Part shown: in pieces, positions 18,611 through 54,951 of the stretch
How the letters are laid out: the number at the start of each line of letters is the position of its first letter
Numbering within the stretch: position 1 is the first letter of the stretch
Assembly: GCA_021292105.1 (NCBI GenBank)
Contig: CM037857.1
Coordinates: 36,587,932 to 36,651,931 of the forward strand
Direction of reading: 5' to 3'
DNA length: 64,000 bases
From: Anadara kagoshimensis
Taxonomy: Eukaryota; Mollusca; Bivalvia; Arcoida; Arcidae
The notes under the pieces: generated by a model
Told to the model about the DNA's origin: nothing
Database searches by the model: none
What the model saw: the letters and a program-made list of their open reading frames with translations, nothing else
Position numbers and translations under genes: made by a program

Positions 18611-18887
18611 GACCTTTCATTAGGAATATTCATATGCGATGATCCGTCCCGTACATGAGTACCATTAGAATTTGAAGTTAATAATAAGCAAGTCATATTT
18701 CTGACGATTTAGAGGAACCAGTAAAAGTGGTGGTTACAGGCAGGTGTTCCTTATATACAGGTTCAAATAATATGAATACAGAACAATTGGGATAAAATTC
18801 TACTGGCCTTTATAAGCAGGTGGCCCTTATATAGAGGTGGTCTTTAAGTCAGGTTGAACTGTTAATATTTAAATTAAAGGTCAAGTA
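18611..18887. mobile_element. MITE with TTGACCTTT ends, split by a nested MITE (copy 1)
   Basis: Left end TTGACCTTTCATTAGGAATA and right end TTTAAATTAAAGGTCAA are inverted. A related, unsplit copy lies near 39608-39793. The insertion at 18719-18861 interrupts it. Confidence 0.55.
18719..18861 (-). mobile_element. Tigger-like MITE nested in another MITE (copy 1)
   Basis: Read on the minus strand it begins CAGTTCAACCTGACTTAAAG and contains CTATATAAGGGCCACCTGC and ATCCCAATTGTTCT. The copy at 36872-37053 shares these phrases. CAGT termini suggest a pogo/Tigger relative. Confidence 0.6.
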
Positions 18888-19245
18888 GACAGGTCAATGT
18901 TGTTTGCCTATAACAGTTATTAATTGTACATTCCACAAAACAAAACTTTTATTATTTCAGATAAACATTCCAGAAAAACTTTTGTTTATATTATGTACAG
19001 TTATGATACCGGGTAATAAAAATTTATTTTACAACATGTTATATCATAAACAGATATATATATACAGGCCCGTAGGCAGGTATTTTAGAAAGGGGGTGCG
19101 AATTTGAAGAATGTTGTTACACGCACCAACGGCGCGGTTGCGCACCGCAGGTGCGCCTTACTAGGGGGGTTGGGGGCATGCCCCCCCAGAAATTTTTTGA
19201 AAAAGAAACGCAAAATGGTGCATTTTGGAGTATTTTAATGAACAA

Positions 19246-22200
19246 TTAGTAGTCAAATATGATGTTTTGAAGTTCCATTTTTCTTGGGTGTTTTTTGGCG
19301 AATACATCAACAACCTTATCGAGAACAACTAGTTTTGCATAGTGAATGTGCATCAAAGCAAGGCCGGTTAATCTATTTTCGGTCATAGATGCCCTCATGT
19401 ATGTTCTTAGCCTTTTGAGTGAACTTGCCCCTCGTTCACAAGAACAGCTTGTGATAGGTAGAGTACATGCTATTTGTAACAGAACATATATGTTTGGAAA
19501 CCGGTCCTTATCACAAATCTTCAATGCATCAATGAGAGTTGAGGGAGTGTTTTTAGTTTCAACGCATTTCTGTTTCCAAAGAATAAGTTCTGTTCCAAAT
19601 GTTTCTACAGATGGAAGATCGTCACCATACATCTCTATCGCTTCATCAAGGTTAGAATCAACTTTGGTCTTGATAACTGATGGAACAAGTCCTATTAGTA
19701 ATGAACTCTTGACCGAAAACTCTGAAATAATAATAAATACCTGTTATAAAGTGAATTACATATACATAAAATTGGTCGAAAAGTGAATGGCCACAATATA
19801 TGAAACACACTGAATTTATATTGTTTCCAATATAGAATTTAGTGTTTTAAATGAAACTTTAATTTTCACCTCAATTTGAAATAGGAATATTACTAAACAT
19901 CTGTTACCAAATACTAGTAACTCATACTAATATTTTCAGAAAGATAATATACTTATATCCTGATTACCTGAAAATCTTTCCTTTAATTCCATTTTTATAT
20001 GGTCAACAAATGGTACAGCTACATTTCTTTGGTAATATTGAAGAACCTGATGATGACATGGTTGTTTTTCACAAATCTCACAGTTTTCAACAGGGGTATT
20101 GGACCTATGCTCTTGTCTTTTGGCAATCCTTGGCAAAGTAGGTGTTTCACCAACCTGAAAAGGTAACATCAAAGTAATAACAATAAGGAACTCCAAATGT
20201 TTATCCACTATGATATTATGCTGCAGATTAATATAGTTCAATTCGTTGATATTTTAGGTATTTAATTTTGCAATTACAATAAAGAGATTTTGAATGAGCA
20301 AAACATTTCTCTTTCATCAACATATTTTCTATTTACAATTCTATAATTAATATTTTGTGAGATTTTATATTAAAAATCCTTGTTAGAAATTCACAGATGC
20401 CAAATAAACAGTTAACAATTGTTAATTCTTCAGTGTTTTTAGATTCCTCACAAAAAGAGTGAAGTGATTATATGTTAATCCCCATTAGGATAACATGTGT
20501 TGTCAAGAAATTCAGTTAAAAAACTTTGATTCCAAACTTTAGCATGTGGTATGGAATGACACAAAGAGTAAGTGAAGGATGAGCGTTTTTGCTATATAAC
20601 CAGATAGCTTTTTACCTTTTCAGCCATCCTTACTGCTTGATCAAACCAATTCTGAAATAGTGGGTTGAAATTCTCCCTCATTGTGACATAGTCTTCTTGC
20701 ACTTTACTTATCTGAAATAAACCGTTCCAAATGAATTAGGTTTTGCTGAGATAACATCGTGATACAAAGAATATATACTCACTGCAAATCAAAGTGAAAT
20801 TGATCAAAAAGATCTTAATGAGTTCTCCAAAACATATATTAAATTATAGACCAAAAACCTTTATCCTAAGGTTTGATTTGAGGTATCCATCTAGTGAAGA
20901 GTATCGTACTGTCATACCTTTCTATGTTCCTTTTGTTGTTATTTTTTTAAATTAGCATTTGTGACCGCCATATTTGAGTGGCAATGTCATATATTCAAAA
21001 CAAATCCATTAGGTCCTTAATTATGATTTAATGTGCTTACAGCAAAGAACAAAAAAGAAATTCATGGCGTAGTCTACACATAATAGTTCGTTTTATATTC
21101 ATTAGTTATAAGATTTTTTGTAAATTGAAAATACAATGTGCGAATATGTAACTTACTTTCTGAATTGCACCCAAAATATCCAACTCTTTTTCTTGAAGAC
21201 TCTTCGTTATCTCATCTAGTCTTGCCAGGGTCATGTATAATATCAAAAAATTGATAATAAAATCAAAAGATGTTATACTTTGAAGCAGTCCTGACGCATC
21301 TTTTTTGGAATCATTGTTCCAGTCCTTGAATAGTTCCATCTGATTTAAATCTTCATGCATTCCATATGCAATGACTTCAAACGCCTTAACCATATAAACA
21401 TAGGCTTGATAAAAATGCTTATACGATTCATGGCGAACAGCCCATCTGGTGACACACAAATTCAACAATGGTTTTCTCTTGTTAGTATCAGGTATATCTC
21501 TTAAGATTATTGCTTTCAATAGGCCTTCTCTCTTTGGACTGTTATTAAAAAATAAACATACTGCTTTCATTTTGTCAATGACATTCCTAATTGATGGCAG
21601 TTTACATGAATGGACGATGACCAAGTTTAGTACATGGCTACAGCAATGAGTGTATGTTGCAAGGGGAGCATGCTTTCTTATAATTTTTTGTACCCCTATA
21701 GATTCACTTGACATGTTAGGTGCACCGTCATATGACTGACCTCTCATATTCCGGACTTGAATATTCATTGCCTCCAAACCTGCTAGTATTTTTCCAGCGA
21801 TATGTTCTCCAGTTATCCTTTCCAGCATAATAAACTCTAAAAATTCCTCTCTAATATTTTGGTTTTCATCCAGAAATCGAATGCACAGTGGAAGGATTTC
21901 CTTGTTGTGAGATTCGACTTCATCCGCCATTATTGCATAATATTTTGCTTTTTGTATTTCATCAATAATATTCTGCTTGATCATTGACCCTATTATTGAT
22001 ATAAGTTCGTTTTGTATGGATGGTGACAAATATGTGCTATTTTTGGCTGTAGGATGTTCCAAATGTTTTTTTAAAAGTGCGTCCGATTCACTTAAAACTT
22101 TCAGCAAAGCTAAAAAGTTACCAGGATTCTTTGAAGAATCTTTTATATTTTCAATGTCTCCTCTTAATGCTATGTTTTGTCTTCCACAAAACAAAATCGT

Positions 22201-23783
22201 CTTAGCAATCATTTTTAAAATATGTCTGTTTTCTTTGCACCTGACCCTTTTCTCGTCGTTAACAATAAAAGGAAGTGTTCTCTCTGGCTGTTCGTGTTTC
22301 AACACAAAGTTTGCAGAATCAATGGCACATTCCATGTGATATTTAGAATTTGTATGCTCGTTAAGTTTTTCTTTAATTTTGTGCCACTGTGTGAATGGCT
22401 TGTTCACAAAATTGCTTTTATTTTCTCTGTTTCTACAAAATAAACTGCAATGAAGGCAGAATACACCATCAAGACATGGACTATAAATTGCCCATGTATA
22501 TCCTTCTATCATCTTTGGTTTGAAAGACCTGTAACATCCATGAATAAAAGTAGATGGGAATATTTGTCCTGGTGTTAACTTAATATGGTTTGTCAGTAAA
22601 TGATACTTTTCTGCGTCACTTAATCTTTGTATTGCATTTAGGCATTCTTTTGGTGTCATCGAACAGTTTAAAATTCTACCAAGGTCAACCTTATATTTCT
22701 GTTCAATATTTGGAGCAGCATGAGTTTCGTCATCGATCCGGTGAAAAACGTTTTCGATATGAGCATTCGCTGTTTCCATCTGAGCGTCTTCTGCTTCTAT
22801 TTCAACATTCTCTGTTTTGAAGTATAATAAATATTAAATAAGAAATAATGAATACACAGTTTCATTTGTTGATGTATTTGTGTATTGGTGTATGGCTATA
22901 ACAGCCGGTATAATTTGTAAATATACCACTTAATTTTGCAACACCTTATCTGAATATAATTCCTCATCAGTAGTGCAAATGTAGTTAGACTTATTTTTAA
23001 GTTTATTTTGGATTTCAATTTCTTGATCTAAAAATTGAAAATTCAGAATATTTGAATTTCTGAAACACCCGGGTGCATTTCTCTTGTCAAAGACCACTGC
23101 GATAGCTCAGTTGGTAGAGTGCTCGCTCCGTAAGTGGGAGGTCGCGGGTCTGACCCAAGACTTGAGAGTGGGTTGTGACTGTTCTTTCGCCAAGCACTCG
23201 GGATTACGAAATGAAAGTCACGGTTCTTTCAGATGAGAACTTAAAATAAACGAGGTCCCCTTTTACGGTAGGCGTGGCACGATAAAGAACCCTGCTGTAT
23301 AATTCCATCAGCGCAACGCACTGGCAACAGTACTGCAATTTCGCCTATAGCTGGCGACGTCTCGATATAAGCGAAATATTCTTGACTGGGACGTTAAACA
23401 CCATTACTCAACTCAACTCACCTCTTGTCAAAGTTTGCATGTTATACTATGTAATTGATTTGGGGCCTTTGCTACGTTCTGTTATGTTTGGATTTAATTA
23501 TATTAGGCATTGAAACATTTGCTTTGTTTTTGGCTTTTGCAGTAATATTGAATGTTTCTATCACCCTACAAAAATAAAGCTCTTGGTGGATGATTTGATG
23601 TCCATAAACCAGTTAACCACATCGCATAATATTTAAAGCCACATGTTTATTTCAAGGTTGTAATAAGATGTGTATTGTGTTATCATTAAGAAGCATTGTT
23701 TCACATACTGCACATTTTAAACACCTGCATTTTTTTGGGGTGTGTGTGTGTGTTTTTTTTAATTATTAATATTATCTTTATTT

Positions 23784-23822
<39 letters not shown>

Positions 23823-25268
23823 TATTATTATTATTATTGTTATTATTTTTTGGGAGGGTTCAAACCATGGCCGAGTCATAATAAAACTAAAACTTGAGAT
23901 ACTGCTTCCTCGCCTGGCGAGCAGTATCAAGAGGATTTTTGACTGGTTCATCCGGTGCCAGGATAATGTGACTGGGGAGTGGAACGTTTGTCTGCGGCAT
24001 ACCGACCCGGTAAGCTGGCACCTTAAAAATGTAACAGGAGGGAGAAAAATGCAGGGTCGGACCGGGGATCGAACCCGGGACCTCCCGCACTATAGGCGAG
24101 TGCTCTACCACTGAGCTACCCAGACCGCTACAAAAAGTCGCCCCGAGTGCGTGGTAGTGCCATGCAGACTATAAACACACATGCATGCCACATGCATTTA
24201 TAAATGAACTTCTTACATAACCCTTAGATTAAAACTTGCTCTCGTCACGAATAGCAGAAAAAATTGCTGATGCGACGTTAAACAACATTATAATCAACCA
24301 ACCATATCTGAGAATTGATTCACTGACCTTACCGTAGGTTGATGGTTTTCATGGGGTTGTCCTGCTTTCTGCAGTTTAGAGTGACCGTCTTAATTCGAGG
24401 GAAATTATATTAAAAGGGCACAAAACTTAAATCTTTTTAAAAGAACTGTGTAAAAACATATTTTACCTCCATCATATTCACTATTTACTTTCATTTTCTT
24501 GGTAGGTGGCAATAATTGATCATCCCTTTGCTGATGTAGTTCATATGGATTGGCAGGTTTATATACAATTGGAATAAAATGGTTTGGTTCAAATGGTCTT
24601 CCATGTGTGTTGTCCAAATTTCCATCTCTTGACCACATTATAAATATGGTATTTTGATTGTTTGATGTAATAAGTGGTTTAACTACACCACTGATAATAG
24701 GTCTGATGTTATTGTTACAATCTGGGTATACAGACCAAATATTATTGCCTATGACTGAAGCAAGACCCATTACATCAACCATACCAGACCATTGTCTATC
24801 TGTACATGTCATCCAAGCTTCCTTCTCAATAGCTTTAACTGGGTCACTTATAACACTGGCTTCATCTCTCAGCACAATTGAAAACAAATTACTGCTGTCA
24901 TATGTTATCTCTGGACAATCTGCAGCCATCAGGAATTTTGGGTGATTAGAATATTTATCGGCATTAATGTAAATTTCTGCAGCTGTCATCATCCTTAAGA
25001 TGTTTGCTAAAGCATATGAACCGCTTAATAAAAATGACACAGAATTAAACAAACAATTTCCATTTCCAAGAGTTTTCACTGGAAATGCCTCGTGTTCAAC
25101 AATTGGAATATCAAATGGCATCAGTGCAGCACCCAACTCATCCTGTTCCAGTTCAGATAACTGCTGTGTTGAAAATTGGTGTATACTTAATTTTTTACGG
25201 TTATGTTCAACAATTTCTTGAACTCTTTTCTTGTTGTTTGACTCAATGGCAAATTTTAAGTCATTCAT
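19246..25268 (-). CDS. OTU-domain/hAT transposase fusion protein
   Basis: Five minus-strand exons: 25268-24467, 22811-21157, 20711-20616, 20154-19968 and 19721-19246; every junction is GT-AG and in phase, giving 1071 residues. Residues about 60-240 resemble an OTU cysteine protease of the vertnin-like kind: LGNGNCLFNSVS with nucleophile Cys72, and PNHFIPIVYK with His230. Cys380, Cys386, Cys389, His420 and His426 form a TTF-type zinc finger. The hAT transposase core follows, with probable catalytic acids Asp564 (IMADEVES), Asp629 (SYDGAPN) and Glu1009 (SCERGASSLKRL). The C-terminal part is the hAT dimerisation domain. It would cut and rejoin transposon ends in the nucleus; the OTU part may remove ubiquitin or a relative, which is inferred. 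The OTU-transposase join rests on one 1.65-kb intron with compatible phase (G|AG, Glu268). If the first donor were skipped, a 287-residue OTU-only product would end at 24405. Confidence 0.85.
23093..23420 (+). mobile_element. tRNA-derived SINE, full-length-looking
   Basis: The head has TAGCTCAGTTGGTAGAGTG (A box) and GGTCGCGGGTCTGACCC (B box). A conserved body follows, with TTCTTTCAGATGAGAAC, ATAAAGAACCCTGCTG and CTATAGCTGGCGACGTCTCG, and the tail ends TTGACTGGGACGTTAAACAC. It sits in intron 1 of the hAT gene. Same family as the copies at 33903, 60171 and 62481. Confidence 0.85.
23731..23846. repeat. T-rich and (ATT)n low-complexity tract
   Basis: A GT run, then about 35 T, then ATT repeats, next to the 3' end of the minus-strand SINE at 23850-24129. 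It is most simply that SINE's tail in reverse. Any plus-strand reading frame of poly-F/I here is an artefact. Confidence 0.8.
23850..24129 (-). mobile_element. tRNA-derived SINE, second family
   Basis: On the minus strand the head reads GGTAGCTCAGTGGTAGAGCA (A box) and GGTTCGATCCCCGG (B box). The body contains GCTTACCGGGTCGGTATGC and CTGGCACCGGATGAACC, then an A/T-rich tail. The body differs from that of the 23093 family. Nested in intron 1 of the hAT gene. Confidence 0.8.
24130..24310 (+). repeat. SINE 3' end fragment
   Basis: Ends with TTGCTGATGCGACGTTAAAC followed by AACATTATAATCAACCAACC, the tail style of molluscan tRNA-SINEs, but without a head in this orientation. Confidence 0.5.
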
Positions 25269-25737
25269 TTTAGATCATAAGCTGCATAGGTTACTGTGGA
25301 AGAAACCTCGGTTTAATAAAATCTAAATTTGACAAGGATACGGAACAGAATACGGAACACGGATATGTCCCAAGTTTCAAAACTCTCTCTTTAACGATCA
25401 AGTAATGATCAGGCAAAATCACTCAACCATGAAAGTAGGTCAAATAATAATTGCGCATTTGAAGCGGCTAATTAAAGTAAGACTGTGTACTTCGTTTCGG
25501 CGACTTAATTACACATGTATGTTTTCAGGTTTAATAGTGGTAAATGATTTTTAACGAGGCTTTAATAGTGCTTAATGGTTTTCAAAGGGGGGTGCGTTCG
25601 CACCCCTCGCACCCCCCCTGAATACGGGCCTGATATATATATATATATATATATGTGGGAATGGTGTTTTAACACCATTTGACCATTTGTTAGCATTTAT
25701 ATACAATTTTTGTGTTGTACATCTTTTTCTTATTTTT

Positions 25738-38100: not shown

Positions 38101-41100
38101 GATTATATAAAACTCCGGAATTCGGACCTGTACTTAACATACTGACAAAATGGTCTTGGTTTTTTCAAGACTTTATAACTTTATTGAAATTCCTTATTCT
38201 TGTTAACAGGCTGCAGATGCAGAAGCTGAGCATTCTGAATTGGAGAAAAGAGCTAAACACTGCAACACAACTCTAGCGGAGGTATATAAGTAATAAAGTA
38301 TTATGTAGCTAGCGAAACAGGAGGGTTTTATCCTCTGGAGCACCAGACCTTATTTAACTTCATTTGCCAGTTTCCAAGATTTTTTATTTTGGACTGTGAT
38401 TTGGACATGGATTGGTATGTTTGATTTTGAAGTGATACTGTATAGAGTGTTATTTTCTCTGGTGCAATTTTGGTGGTCATATTAAAAATTGCCAATATAA
38501 AAAAAAAATATCTCTATGAAATTTTTTAAATGCCAATTGTATTGTGTTTTTTCTTATGGTAATGAGCAGATTTTATGTGGTAGTTAAGATTTATCTCCCT
38601 TTGTAAGTATGTTGTATTTAAATATCAATCGTAATCTGATTTGATTATCCTTATATTTTTACAAGCTGACTAGTTAAATAATCAATCGATCAATCACTGA
38701 TCAGCATTGGATTTACTGAGACTCATGAATCACCCACTGAGAGACTAAACAGTATCTGATTGATGATGATAATCCACTATGTATAAAGCAAGTTAATTGA
38801 ACATTGACTGTGATTGTTTCAATAATACATATATATATTTCAAAGTATTATACTATTATATGATGTTTTGTTGATATATGTTTTGATTTTGTATTGCTAC
38901 AAGTAATAATATGATGAAATGGTGAAATCCTAGACTATGTCTAATTTGAACTGTAAACTTTGTTCTTACTTCTGATATCTGGAAGAGGGGACTCAGTGGA
39001 CCAGTGGTCTAAAGTGTATGTTTAAAGATCACATTGTCTTTCACTGTCTAGGTTCCCATTTGGTAAAGATTCTAGTGCGAGAAAGTTTCATCAGTTCACT
39101 TGCCAAAGGGTGGCATTTTTTGTGGGAATCTGGTTTTCTCTACCATTCCTTAACTGACCACCTTGATAATAGGGAAAAAAGTTTGGAGTCTAAAACTTTA
39201 TTACAATTACTCATATCTAGAAGTTAAAATTAAAACTTTCATAATCAATGAGTTGTGAGATTTTTCACTGTGTTATGCATGATTCCAGAGAAAAGTTTAA
39301 TCAGGAATATTTATTCTTTATTAGAGTGTAATATATAGAATACAATGATTCAAAGTGATGATTTTATAACAAGTATGTTTTGTTTAAAACAGGAGTTAAA
39401 TAAACTTCACTTTGAATTGAATTGGAGAGAGTCTTCTATAGAAGATAATCAAGAAAGATGGACTGAAAGATTTGACAGGTAGTGTAAAACTTAAAAAAAA
39501 ATCCTGAAATAAATTGCTCACAAATATAAAATAAAGAATTAAAATCATACAAATATCTATGTATAGTCAAACAACATTGTTCAGATTGGCCTGTCAGTTT
39601 GACCTTTCCTAGGAATATTCATATAAGAGAATCCATCCATTGCATGGGTAGTGTTAGGATTCACAGTTAATGCATACACAAAACATGTTTTCTTTTGGAA
39701 AATAGTATATTCTATGATGTAGACAAAGTAAGGGTGAGTTCCCTTTACATAGATGTACTTGTCTAGAACAAATATTTAAATTAAAGGTCAACCAGACAGT
39801 TTAGTGCTGTTTGCCTATTGGAATTACGTATCATATTTCTAGCATTAATCATAGAACATAGAAAGTGCCAATATGAAAAATATTGTTTAATAAAATAATG
39901 CTGTTCAGTGACAATTGACGATTTTTTGTGGCTGCTGGTCAAATCCTGTTTTTATTCGCGAAGATCTTGGCGAAGATCTTGATCTTCTCGAATGTAGCTG
40001 TTACATGCAGATTTCTCAACCCGAATATTCTTCCGTTACAGAAAATCAACTCTCTCTCGTATGTAGGTCGAAGTTTGAATAATGGGAGATAATTCAAATT
40101 TCAATAACTTTTGTATTCTATGGATTTGATGGGTAAATTGTCATGTAAATGGGTTTATTTATTGAGTAATATTGATTTAGTAAGAAATTGATACGAGATT
40201 GAAAAGAGAACGCTGCATTTTGTTGTATTTGAGGATAGAATATGTTGATGACGTCACGCGGATCCCCCCTCCCGGTCAACAGATTTCTTTGTATATATTA
40301 TAATCTGAAATCTGATTGGTTGAGATCGTCTTCTTGACCCAGATGTTAGCTATTTTTAGCAGTAATTAACTTTTAATGGTTTTATCATACCTGCCAACCC
40401 TCCCGATCAGGGATTGAGATTAACGGGCGCCCAGTTTTTCGCTCTGGGCGATAAATGTATCATACACAGGTCGCCCAGGGCTGCCAGGTGGCGATTAGAA
40501 TTTTCAGTTCGGTGTATTTGACATTCCGATCCGTTTACCGATTTTCTGTTTATTTCTGATTGGCGACAATAATAGTAAAATTGAAAAATGGGTATCATAT
40601 AGTTAACAAGTGTAAATGGACCGGTGTTCCGACCGGAATTCAAATACGGTGCCATTTCGTTTCCTTTTCTGATATTTATGTATAAAATGATACTTCCGAC
40701 TTTCTGCCATGTGGGAATTTTTAGGAGCATCGACTCCAAAGGCTAAACAAGGACCTGCGGAAAAACGAAAGTACTATCAAGAGTATGATAAGTCCAAACG
40801 CATCGGAGCATATAAAAAGCCATGGGAAGATGGCAGGCCTTGGTTGTATGATACGCAGGACGGAATGAAGTGTGCCGATTGTGTAGAGTTCGACAGGAAA
40901 AAATCTGTATTTACCGAGGGTTGCACTAGTTACAAACTTGACAGTGTAAATAAACATGACATTTCTGAATCTCACAAACAGGCCCAAGCCTTTAGTAATG
41001 CAAAACAAGTTCCTGCTCATAAATCAAAATCTGCCAAAATTATACAGTCATTGACATTGGCAGTACCTATAGATCAACATTTTCTGCAAAACCATTCGTC

Positions 41101-44100
41101 AATGTAATTGCAGATGTTGAATATCGAAAAGTAAAGCAAGGGATAGAATAATCCAAATGTATATGCCTGATATATTCAGATCAACCATCACTCTTGACAG
41201 TTCATTGTATGGCTCATCGAAAAGTTAAGCTCAATCCCTGCTGATGTGAGGAGTCTCCCCTTGGAAATTTTGGAATTTTGTGCTATCATACTGCTTTTCC
41301 CGTTTTTCAAAGCATTCCGTGAAGTCATCCTTAAAAAATTATAAATTGATAAGATTGAAATCTGGGATAGCAATCACCTTTGTAGAGTGGTCATCTGTCA
41401 ACTACATTTTTATCATGTACAGAACCTTTGTAGAGGGGTCACCTGTCAAACCCAGTCAGCGGGGATCCTAATGGCCACCCGGTTGAAAAAATTGTTGTTT
41501 ACAAGATTTACTAAAATTATGCTGGTCTCGGGAATAAAAAGTCTTCCAAAAATTATCGAATTCTTAAAACACAACTCTGGTGATATAAATAATAATAAAA
41601 TAATAGTTAATTTTTTCAAGTTATTAATTTATTTTAAAAAATATCCTCAATTATGACATGAAAGATATCAGAAGCTTATTAGCTCACCTGAGCCAAAGGC
41701 TCAGATGAACAATTGTCATCTATCTTCATCCGTCTTGTATAAACTTTTTAGCTCACCTGAGCCAAAGGCTCAGATGTGCAATTGCCATCTATCTTCGTCC
41801 GATGTGCGTCATGTATAAACTTTTCACATTTTTTATCAATTCCTCCAAAACTACAGAGCCAAATTGGATGATATTTGACAGTAATGGTCAAGTAAGGGGT
41901 TTTCAGATTTGCACAAATGCAAGGATTATGTCCCCTTGGGGCCCCATAAAGGGGAAATTTGTGAAAATCTTTAAAAATCATCTGCTCTGAACCTACAAGA
42001 GATATAACTAGATATTTCATGTAAAACACTATGGGCACCTAGTTTTAGATTTGCACATATTGTAGCTTTAGGGGCCAAAATGAGATAATGGCAAGGTACT
42101 TGAGGGGGAAATTGCAAAATTAATGTATTTGTCAATATATTTGAAAACTATAAGCTTTTTGTATGGGCATCATCATCATGTGTATTGGAATACTGTAGGC
42201 ATTTGCACAACAGTCATTTTGATATATGAATAGAGGTCATAAGTTCAAAGGTCAAGGTCATAGATGTAAACGAATACTGAAATGGTTAATTATCTCAAAA
42301 ACTTTGAACTTTTTGTGTAGGCATGTATATTAGAATATTGTAGGCATTTGCCTTACGGTCATTTCCATATATGAACGAAGGTCATAGGTTCAAAGGTCAA
42401 GGTCATAGATGCAAACAAATACTGAAATGGTGAATTATCTCAAAAATGATAAACTTTCTCTATAGGCATGTATATCAGAATGTTATAGGCATTTGCACAA
42501 TGTTCATTTTGATATATGAATGTAGGTCATAGGTCTAATGGTCAAGGTTATAGATGCAAATGAATACTGAAATGATTAATTATCTTAAAAACTATAAACT
42601 TTTGTATAGGCATATATGTTAAAATATTGTAGGTATTGGCCTAACGATCATTTTGATATATGAATGAAGGACATGAGTTTAAAAGTCAAGGTCACTGATG
42701 CAAACAAATACTGACATGGTTAATTATCTCAAAAACTATAAACTTTTTGTATAGGCTTCTAAATTGTAGGTATTGACCTAATATTCATTGCGATATTTAG
42801 ATTAAGGTCACGGGTTCAAATTTTTCTTTACCTTTTTAGTTGTTTATAAACAATATATTGTAGCTAGATTTCAGATATATTATATGTAGCACTCTTATGA
42901 CTAGTTATGTTATAATAAATTTGCAAAAAATCCTTACATATAATTGGCCCTTACTGCTGAAAATTTATTTGGACATTCTCTTTAATTAATGTCAATGACC
43001 ATTGAACCTCTGCATGAGATATGTACTCAGCTGCATGTGAGCATTAAGGCTCATGGACCTCTTGTTTAATATTAGGGTCTCCATGACGATGGAAGTAACT
43101 TTGACCATCCTTGATGGTTCCATACATGCATTTATTCGGATTGAACTATTTCCTACATGAATCCTTAATATTGGTCCAATGTGTGAATATTAAAACAGCC
43201 CCATGCTCATAGTCTGCACATTGCACACTACATGAACCCGCTATGTTGTGTTGGGAGCAATGCAAGGTGAACATAACAACCTCCTTTCAGTTACCTGACA
43301 ACTTCATATACCTGACACTACATTGATGGAGACACTGAACTCCCTGTCTTTCTAATCTTTCGCGAATTTTAGTACTTTCAGTACTTTGATTCCATTCCTA
43401 GACTAAGAGCCAAATTTGCCATTTGTGTCTAACTAAATTCTTAGAAATTCTTTTACAAAGTAACATATTTAAGCCAATATGTGAAGAAAAATATTTTATA
43501 AAGAACTATATTTCTACAAATTTTGGAGATTTGGCTACTAATATTTCAATTTGTGAAAACCTAGCAATCATGGCAATAAATTTATTGTGAAATTGACTGG
43601 ACATGTATACCAGCATGTGCTTATCATGGCAATAAATTTATTGTGAAATTGACTGGATATGTATACCACCATGTGCTCATCATGGCAGTTAATTCATTGT
43701 GAAATTGACTGTATATATATACCATCATGTGCTTCTTCTGGTACATCATAACTTACTGGTACTCAATTTGAATGATTTATTGATTGATTTATTGGATGGG
43801 TGGATGGATGATGGACAGAAAAACATGTATGAATGGATGAAAGAATGAATGGGGTTTAATGTTGCATTCAAGAATATTTGAGTTATATTAAGACGTATAT
43901 GATATTTTGTTCTTTGTAGTATTTGTAAAGAAAATGCATCACTTATGATTGTTCTTGAAGAAAGATCTGAAGAACTCAGACATGCTAATGCCAAGATATT
44001 TGGTAAGTCTAATTTTTCTTGTCATTGTTATACAATGTATCCAGAGTAATGAATAATGGATACATAGCGAAAAATGAATCATTATTTTCCTTGTATAAAA

Positions 44101-47100
44101 ATTTGATTCAGAACTTATTCTCATGTGGAGATAAAAAATGCAGTAAAAATCGTATAACTCATTGGGGAGCCCAGGAAATATTAGAAACAATTGAACACCA
44201 GCACACACCTGAGTTACTTTGCTAAAATGATTGACAGATAAACATATGTAGAGTTCACCTCTCTAAAATAACTCATTTAATGAGTACCTGTTTATTAAGG
44301 TTGTTAGATTCTACAGATTTCCACATTTCACTTTCATGATAATTGACATATTGCCAGCCATGCCTTTTATGTTCCGACAATGGCCAACCATCATGGTACC
44401 AAAGCAGCGTCACAGAAACTAATCGTGTTCTAGTGTCAGTGACATCATTAAATGGCACAATTCAGACCCAGTTTTCATTCTGTTTTTTGTGTAATTCAGG
44501 CATGCCAGGCCTTTGTCAGAACATTGTGGGCGTGGCCGGCGATTTGTCAATTTTGTGCAATAATGATGATGGACTGATGTTACAATGTAAATTATACAAC
44601 GTAAGTAACCTAATAATGTCTTTGACAAAATGTTTTACAATATATGTTTTTTTTGTAGCTTTAGACAGAGAAAGAGATGAGTTGTTAGCTTTACTAGATG
44701 TTCATGAGAGATCAAGATATATGAAATCACGGAGTCGAACATCAGATGATGGTTACTTTGACTATACCTCAACAGAGGTAAGATATTACTTGTATTTGTC
44801 AATGATCCAGGCATGTCCTTGGTCCAAGCATGTCCTGAATCAATAAGCTTTTCAGAAGTTTGTGTTAACTTTTGCATGAATCAAGTATATTTATATTCAA
44901 TCCTCAGAAGCTATCCTTCAGTGTTCCTGTTGGTGGTTCCTGTGGCATGAATCAAGTGCATTGGACCATCACAATGCTAATCTTCAGCAATCCTGTTGGT
45001 GGTTCCTGTGGCATGAATCAAGTGTATTGGACCATCACAATGCCAATCTTCAGTATTTCTATTGATGGTTCCTGTGGCATGAATCAAATGCAATGGACCA
45101 TAACAATGCTAATCTTCAGTATTCCTGTTGGTGGTTCCTGTGGCATGAGTCAAATGCAATGGACCATCACAATGCTAATCTTCAGTGTTCCTGTTGGTGG
45201 TTCCTGTGGCATGAGTCAAATGCAATGAACCATCACAATGCTAATCTTCAGTATTTCTATTGATGGTTCCTGTGGCATGAGTCAAATGCATTGAACCATA
45301 ACAATGCTAATCTTCAGTATTCCTATTGGTGGCTCCTGTGGCATGAATCAACTGTATTGGACCACCACAATGCTAATATTCAGTATTTCTATTGATGGTT
45401 CCTGTGGCATGAATCAAGTGCATTGGACCATCACAATGCTAATCTTCAGTATTTCTATTGATGGTTCCTGTGGCATGAATCAAATGCAATGGACCATAAC
45501 AATGCTAATCTTCAGTATTTCTATTGATGGTTCCTGTGGCATGAATCAAGTGCATTGGACCATCACAATGCTAATCTTCAGTATTTCTATTGATGGTTCC
45601 TGTGGCATGAATCAAATGCAATGGACCATCACAATGCTAATCTTCAGTATTCCTATTGATGGTTCCTGTGGCATGAGTCAAATGCATTGAACCACCACAA
45701 TGCTAATATTCAGTATTTCTATTGATGGTTCCTGTGGCATGAATCAAATGCATTGAACCATAACAATGCTAATCTTCAGTATTCCTGTTGGGTGGCTCCT
45801 GTGGCATGAATCAACTGTATTGGACCACAACAATGTTAATATTCAGTATTTCTATTGATGGTTTCTGTAGTATGAGTTGAGTCATTTGGACCATCACAAT
45901 GCTAATCTTCGGTATTCCTGTTGGGTGGCTCCTGTAGCATAAATCAACTGTATTGGACCACCACAATGTTAATATTCAGTATTTCTATTGATGGTTTCTG
46001 TAGTATGAGTTGAGTCATTTGGACCATCACAATGCTAATCTTCAGTATTTCTATATGTGATTTCTAGAGTTGAGTCATTTGGACCATCACAATGCTAATC
46101 TTCAGTATTTCTATATGTGATTTCTAGAGTTGAGTTATTTGGACCATGTGGACCATCACAATGCTAATCTTCAGTATTTCTATATGTGATTTCTAGAGTT
46201 GAGTCATTTGGACCATCACAATGCTAATCTTCAGTATTTCAATTAGTAGTTCTTGTGGCATGAATCAAGTGCATTGGATAATCACATTTTTAAGTGGATT
46301 CAGCTGTCACAAGGTTGAGTTTGCTTTTATAATGTTCTGAACAGGTAATTATTCATATTTGTTTTACTGCTTGTAATTTTGTTTGTTTGTTTGTTCAACA
46401 GAACAAAGGGAGATTTACATTATGTTTAATCATTTTGTATAATTGACAGTTAGCTGTGCTTGGAGCATGTAAATGTCGCATGAAGAGCCCAGAACCATGT
46501 GGTTGTGCACATGCTGCTGCCAACATGAGAAGAGAGATGGTTAAAATAAAACATGAGGTAAGATTTGGGAATAACCGAATCCTACACCAGTGACAATCTA
46601 AGATAGGAATATCTCGGATGAGAATGAACACTTTCCTGCCTAGATTGAGATTGAGATTAGAAATATCCATCTTGTTATCGCCCATTTGCAACATGAAATA
46701 CAAATTGTAAACAAATATTTGCAATATCAAATGCCATCATCTTAAAATGATGTAGCTAATTTTTGTTCATTCATGCATAAAATGATTATGATTTCATGAA
46801 TTTAGTTAGTTTAAATTACAGTTGCATTGTAGATGAGAAAAGTAACCCTAGGGAGGGATAGAGAAATCATACTTATGGAAATCTAGAGAAAGCATGGAAA
46901 ATTATATGTCTCACCATTCTAACCTTAATAAATTGTCAATCAGCAAAATATTAATGTAAAATTGCATTGTGCAATAACATTGCTAGGTTTCCATAGAAAA
47001 TATGTAGAAACCAAATTGTAGAAATTACTTGTATTTTGTACTTTTTAAATAACCTTGTTCTTTACAAATTTGCTAGAATGTGTCAGTTATATATTTAAAT

Positions 47101-54129: not shown

Positions 54130-54560
54130 CAAAACTATTAATGTTATTCACTTGATCTTTTTGATTGGCTTTCATTTGCCATGGAAATTATTGTTTTCAT
54201 TTGTTCTTTAATTCTTTTTGTATATTATGCTCCATAGACACTATTGTTTTTATTGGCTCTCTAATACATTTTGAATATTATGCGCCATGGAAACCATTGT
54301 TTTCTTTGGTTCTGTAATACATTGTGTATATTAACTGCTATGGAAACAATTGCTTTCATTGGTTCTCTAATTGTGGTTATTATTTTTTATGGAAACTATT
54401 GTTTTCATTGGCTCTCTAATGCTTGGTGGTATGTGCTATGGAAACTATTGGGCTTTGTAATTCTGGGTGATTTTTATTTGGTATGGAAACCATTATCTTT
54501 TTACTGGATCTGTGAGGCTTGATGTATATTATTTAATATGGAAACATTTGTTTTTTCATT
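54130..54560 (+). repeat. Degenerate tandem repeat of about 60 bp
   Basis: About seven loose units with ATGGAAACNATTGTTTTCAT and TGGCTCTCTAAT, decayed to different degrees. Adjacent to the next array. Confidence 0.65.
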
Positions 54561-54910
54561 GAATCTCTAAGTCAGGAATCATTACATTTATACTTTTACT
54601 TGCCATGGATACTATATATTTCATTAATGCAACATTATCAAATGGATGTATACAGACTGTGTCTCCATGGTAACATTGAATCTCTAAGTTAGGAATCATT
54701 ATATTAACACTTTTACTTGCCATGGATACTATATATCTCATTAATGCAACATTATCAAATGGATGTATACAGACTGTGTCTCCATGGTAACATTGAATCT
54801 CTAAGTTAGGAATCATTATATTAACACTTTTACTTGCCATGGATACTATATATCTCATTAATGCAACATTATCAAATGTATGTATACAGACTGTGTCTCC
54901 ATGGTGACAT
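54547..54910 (+). repeat. 118-bp tandem repeat, three copies
   Basis: Units with CTTGCCATGGATACTATATA, ATGCAACATTATCAAATGGA and GACTGTGTCTCCATGGTAAC. Copies two and three are almost identical; the first is a little diverged. The minus strand reads open because of periodicity only. Confidence 0.85.
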
Positions 54911-54951
54911 GGAAGTCAAGTTTTGGTAATCTGCCAATGCAGAGCAATGTC

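Follow-up and report, generated by a model that had tools for sequence, protein, structure and literature searches.

A hAT transposon of the bivalve Anadara kagoshimensis with an OTU-like domain joined to the N-terminus of its transposase

The stretch of DNA considered here (the window) comprises 64,000 nucleotides of Anadara kagoshimensis (assembly GCA_021292105.1, contig CM037857.1, positions 36,587,932 to 36,651,931 of the forward strand). On its minus strand lies a gene in which an exon for an OTU-like domain is followed by exons for a hAT transposase, the whole being enclosed in a hAT-type element that is referred to below as family A. An initial annotation of the window, made from the letters alone, had interpreted this gene as an in-frame fusion of a hAT transposase and an OTU-type cysteine protease. 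The features of the element, in window positions, are as follows.

19065..25632, minus strand: family A element of the hAT type (6568 bp) with CAGGCCCGTA at both ends, its gene read from the minus strand
19060..19064, no strand: target duplication, left copy, ATATA, within a TA repeat and ambiguous alone
25633..25637, no strand: target duplication, right copy, ATATA, read from the sequence
19065..19080, plus strand: terminal inverted repeat beyond the 3′ end of the gene (16 nt; 88% complementarity with 25617-25632)
25617..25632, minus strand: terminal inverted repeat on the 5′ side of the gene, pairing with 19065-19080
24467..25268, minus strand: exon 1, OTU-like domain, residues 1-267 and the first base of codon 268
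25053..25055, minus strand: codon of Cys72 (motif NGNC), putative nucleophile
24579..24581, minus strand: codon of His230 (motif PNHF), putative general base
22812..24466, minus strand: intron 1 (phase 1), GT-AG in all seven full-length copies examined
21157..22811, minus strand: exon 2, TTF-type finger region and RNase H-like transposase core (DUF4371)
20616..20711, minus strand: exon 3, part of the joined frame
19968..20154, minus strand: exon 4, part of the joined frame
19246..19721, minus strand: exon 5, hAT dimerisation region (Dimer_Tnp_hAT) with an ER motif, and stop codon

The gene is enclosed by a single pair of hAT terminal repeats, as had been proposed, with CAGGCCCGTA located at 19065 (+) and 25632 (−); the proposal of one element thus holds, but the span originally assigned to it was too narrow, the full element extending from 19065 to 25632, and its target duplication is 5 bp long. 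An exact 5-bp duplication flanks six of the eight family A copies in which both ends were read (ATATA in the window, AAGTT in L011, GATTT in L013, CCTCT in L014, TTTTA in L015, and TATAT in L017/L029); a ninth copy (L018), the right end of which is not recognisable, was left out of this count. Of the two exceptions, L012 deviates by a single additional base and L016 shows no duplication. Duplications of 5 bp also flank two of two copies of a related family, C (CATGG and TCGTG), and one of one copy of another, B (GAATG). Repeat copies that are free of the insert and carry a single copy of the target are present for L014 (window 18800-18862) and for the family C element L021.

The minus-strand exons 25268-24467, 22811-21157, 20711-20616, 20154-19968, and 19721-19246 add up to 3216 bases, corresponding to 1071 codons and a stop. 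The joined five-exon frame contains no internal stop and all four introns are GT-AG, in agreement with the 1071 open codons of the initial annotation, and the phase described there for the junction of exons 1 and 2 (G|AG) is as written. Intron 1 is retained, with small gaps only, in six aligned full-length copies. Its splicing out of the family A transcript is a prediction, which fits the observation that the frames of families B and C are open and have no intron at this position.

The final 896 bases of the gene have 14 matches in the genome from which the window was taken (1.115 Gb in 36 contigs); five cover short pieces of this query, and nine, from near-identical copies of the element, extend over nearly the whole of it. 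The OTU exon is present in all nine of these copies, and thus copies of the element without the OTU exon, which the initial annotation had named as grounds for abandoning a fusion, are not found within family A. Neither stops nor frame breaks interrupt seven of the nine OTU exons, whereas that of C9 has two stops and that of C19 is split by a frameshift. The whole frame is open in five of the seven full-length copies that were translated (the window copy and L011-L016, with L017 and L018 outside this set), L011 and L016 being frameshifted. Six copies share 99.8-99.9% identity with the window copy over the aligned bases, which argues that family A has moved recently.

Three further families of the same genome (B, C, and D) encode an OTU domain followed by a hAT transposase in the same order. 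Relatives were scored for 79 of 357 candidates, and the counts are therefore lower bounds. At least 42 of the 79 scored rows have an OTU match upstream, on the same strand and within 4 kb (11 of family A and 31 others); among the 31 others, the distance between OTU and transposase is exactly 403 bases in 27, and a frame of 1074-1075 codons is present in 13. In family B, the OTU and transposase matches lie together in an open frame that measures up to 1075 codons from stop to stop, and Pfam reports DUF4371 (5e-16), OTU (0.00018; 22.5 bits vs. the curated 23.3), and hAT dimerisation (0.13). Family C is represented by a 4272-bp element with CAGGCCCGTA ends (L021), in which OTU and transposase lie in a single frame of 1068 codons (DUF4371 6.4e-27, dimerisation 1e-7); several of its further copies are broken. 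In family D (L023), an intron lies within the OTU part and the transposase comes after it. The L023 locus itself consists of two near-identical family D copies arranged head to head in a palindrome of ~9 kb. Since families B and C encode OTU and transposase unspliced, the fusion does not depend on the predicted splicing of family A. In the parts that were tested, namely the single frame in B and C and the presence of the OTU exon in nine of nine family A copies, the original reading as a fusion is supported.

The other 37 scored rows have no upstream OTU match, and one of them is a displaced piece of family A. Relatives without OTU exist, and they do so as separate families. In one of these, E1 (L034), three copies share a CAGTGGCGTAG terminus situated ~300 bases ahead of the frame, a distance too short to accommodate an OTU exon. 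No relatives were found in viral contigs searched with the OTU exon, transposase exon 2, and the transposase alignment, or in prokaryotic genome contigs searched with the transposase alignment.

In a tree built from nine transposases, each family being represented by a single row, one branch (96/95) separates the four families with OTU from the five without. The branch of family B is long, and among the five OTU-less representatives L048-L050 are incomplete, spanning 400-433 codons, and were classed as OTU-less through genome match listings for their upstream DNA. The tree of OTU domains unites A, C, and D in one clade (100/97), with B outside it. A grouping of all four hAT OTU domains is not rejected (p=0.25), whereas a grouping of A with B alone is rejected (p=0.0047); for the transposase, in turn, a grouping of A, C, and D together is nearly rejected (p=0.067). 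A single capture of the OTU domain followed by loss and two separate captures both fit these trees. Between pairs of A, C, and D, identity over aligned columns, which is a comparison and not a test of selection, amounts to 36-40% for OTU vs. 24-34% for the transposase, and in pairs with B the OTU value is about equal to that of the transposase or slightly higher. It can be argued that a domain conserved as well as the transposase matters to the element. The fusion of OTU and transposase is a real and old arrangement.

Judged by sequence comparison, the exon 1 domain qualifies as a homolog of the OTU cysteine proteases (PF02338). In an alignment of nine OTU-like domains from this genome, which belong to several transposon types, the Cys72 and His230 that the initial annotation had pointed out in exon 1 both fall on columns that are invariant in nine of nine domains. 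When the four hAT OTU domains were combined into a profile and compared with solved structures, OTUD1 (3.3e-5), OTUD5 (1.2e-3), and A20 (6.6e-3) came out at the top, with oligosaccharyl transferase rows also turning up from an E-value of 0.14, and the profile of all nine members reached OTUD1 at 1.9e-6. The Pfam OTU family is matched at E<=1 by nine of nine members (best 7.5e-9; window domain 0.037). Several results weigh on the other side. Compared singly with Pfam OTU, exon 1 of the window scores below the cut-off (E=0.058; 14.3 bits vs. the curated 23.3), and phmmer with the OTU exon against solved structures returned no OTU and one unrelated row (E=0.98). For neither the complete family C protein nor the family D exon without the Cys part does Pfam report an OTU domain. 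The profile matches to known enzymes cover mostly the Cys region, and we therefore infer the OTU fold as a whole. The position three residues before the Cys is occupied by Asn in A, C, D, and one PHD protein, instead of an acidic residue, and the third residue is uncertain. An AlphaFold model of residues 1-267 made without an alignment had a pLDDT of 31 and was not used. Finally, the OTU domain shows no excess of conservation in the pair A-B (30.7% vs. 31.4% for the transposase). Thus, the comparison of residues 1-267 with OTU hidden Markov models, which had been proposed together with the fusion, gave a divided answer: the window domain alone falls short, and the OTU assignment stands on its relatives and on profiles. 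Exons 1, 2, and 5 gave no match in NCBIfam or PHROGs.

The transposase part of the gene is recognised by Pfam as DUF4371 (2.5e-16) and Dimer_Tnp_hAT (3.9e-9), with no integrase; zf-C17orf113 on exon 2 is below the cut-off (0.22). An alignment of six families contains the invariant residues D297, E298, D362, C390, and H393 (exon 2 numbering), with a CxxH column; which residues of the RNase H-like core are catalytic is our assumption, and the ER motif in exon 5 was identified by eye. The 8-bp target duplication usual for hAT elements is not found, the duplications of families A, B, and C being 5 bp long. The window element can be assigned to the hAT superfamily and is of the 5-bp kind, as in the hAT5 group, the placement with hAT5 following duplication length and not sequence grouping. 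This group is reportedly due to Kapitonov and Jurka in 2007. Groups of hAT elements with 5-, 6-, and 7-bp duplications have been described (PMC12730594), and those with 5 bp constitute hAT5 (PMC12730594; PMC9004415), as stated in excerpts of these papers. The family A element resembles them in having a hAT transposase and 5-bp duplications, and differs in its OTU domain, none being mentioned for hAT5 in the same excerpts, a comparison by description only; PMC6004678 gave no match for hAT5 or OTU.

Domains that cleave ubiquitin or SUMO are known on DNA transposons, including Ginger1, Helentrons, and the Ulp1-bearing Mutator elements (PMC2836005, in excerpt, as are the other papers compared here). 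A known parallel is Ginger1, which also combines a cut-and-paste transposase with an OTU-like domain and shares the presence of defined ends and introns; its OTU or Ulp1 domains are C-terminal, and a role in repair was suggested by its authors (PMC2836005). Ginger1, however, has a Gypsy-integrase-like transposase and CCGG/CCGT-type duplications, in contrast to the hAT transposase, N-terminal OTU, and 5-bp duplications of the present element, and the detection of DUF4371 and hAT dimerisation without an integrase places the latter outside Ginger1. Helentrons (PMC6431247; PMC5148889) likewise encode a mobile-element protein with an OTU-like domain, but this is a rolling-circle Rep-helicase instead of a cut-and-paste transposase. 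Rust fungi have hAT7 elements that likewise acquired an accessory enzyme, encoded by TET/JBP dioxygenase genes (PMC12730594), although the enzyme is a different one and the duplications are 7 bp long. In the open-licence PMC literature, no OTU-hAT fusion was found among the matches listed, as judged by title and start of the abstract, Repbase being outside this search; PMC9017028 yielded mentions in its reference list only.

Taken together, the window very probably contains a recently mobile hAT transposon that makes 5-bp duplications and whose transposase carries an N-terminal OTU-type domain in the same polypeptide. By analogy with the related families, the spliced element would make a protein of 1071 residues, and, as expected for the hAT family, its finger and RNase H-like core would bind the ends, excise the element, and insert it elsewhere. 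It is a possibility, with somewhat less than an even chance of being correct, that the OTU part acts as a cis isopeptidase and strips ubiquitin off the transposase or off proteins gathered at the cut. Such removal would give a longer-lived transposase, or would turn repair and silencing in favor of the element; among the OTU roles, protecting the transposase or editing the proteins at the cut seems likeliest.

The domain might instead be a weak or dead OTU fold that serves as a binding or structural module, a less likely view that nonetheless deserves consideration, given that A, C, and D have Asn where Asp would precede the Cys, and that vertnin, described with an OTU-like fold, is listed as inactive in the excerpt of PMC10318531. 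Vertnin is said there to be without catalytic residues, whereas Cys and His are kept here in nine of nine domains from several transposon types, and also in D; by description, this sets the present domain apart. Slightly less probable again is the proposal that ubiquitinated PCNA or chromatin is the target of the OTU domain where the element is excised, with recruitment in some families by a PIP-like motif. Candidate matches to a pattern that we take to be PCNA-binding occur directly after the OTU domain in C (QSTVLSFF, L021 residues 282-289) and D (QETLFSFF, residues 293-300), and at the N-terminus of the OTU-less E1 (SRKISEFF, L034 residues 6-13). However, the sole match in A lies inside the transposase core and not in the linker, B has none, and the short motif is a putative one. 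That the OTU domain is a self-processing protease releasing the transposase appears improbable: its N-terminal position and the poorly alignable stretch ahead of the finger would suit such a role, but a conserved cleavage site is not seen, and OTU enzymes are known to cleave after ubiquitin-like tails. The least credible view, that the OTU gene and the transposase are two genes, or the OTU exon a host gene that landed there, joined in phase by chance, draws on the unspliced reading of exon 1, which ends at 24405, and on an internal Met in exon 2 that could start a shorter protein, and is rejected because nine of nine copies carry the exon, B and C have a single unspliced frame, and the GT-AG borders are present in seven of seven copies.

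Intron 1 of the window copy contains two further features.

24054..24126, minus strand: tRNA-like sequence (ARAGORN, tRNA-Tyr), probably the head of a short interspersed nuclear element (SINE)
23091..23411, minus strand: dispersed repeat with 81-84% matches at 62813-62476 and 34245-33901, putatively SINE-like

OTU-like domains also occur in other frames of this genome. At L044:1545-4001 (+), a MULE-type transposase (MULE 3.3e-10) and an N-terminal OTU-like domain (0.0033, below the cut-off) share one open frame, a further transposon type with an OTU addition. L030:4194-7583 (−), and also L038, L039, L042, and L046, contain large open frames in which an OTU-like domain sits at the C-terminus and the motif DGPTTQY.QK.NF may mark an undescribed DDE-type transposase; Pfam reports no transposase family on these frames. 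At L043:1948-3000 (+) and L045:2167-3501 (+), a PHD finger is followed by an OTU domain, both above the Pfam cut-offs. Elsewhere in the window, a zf-C17orf113 finger (2.7e-10) at 40691-41104 (+) is perhaps the start of another hAT-derived gene, an exon of a leucine-rich-repeat protein (LRR_8 1.9e-27) lies at 1769-2548 (−), and tandemly repeated frames with units such as GGSCGMNQ... and CYHGDTVCIHPFDN... are found at 44869-45690 (+) and 54556-54915 (−).

With this element, hAT joins the transposase types that have been seen with an OTU domain, although Repbase may contain earlier cases. The occurrence in one genome of intact near-identical copies, of relatives with an unspliced fusion, and of relatives without OTU makes the role of the domain accessible to experiment. 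A bolder and rather unlikely interpretation is that these families represent an old hAT5-type clade with an obligatory active deubiquitinase, accompanied in some families by a PCNA-binding motif. Such an enzyme would alter the ubiquitination of the transposase, PCNA, or chromatin where the element is cut out, and would in this way influence repair or evade silencing; if this were true, these transposases would come equipped with a ubiquitin editor of their own.

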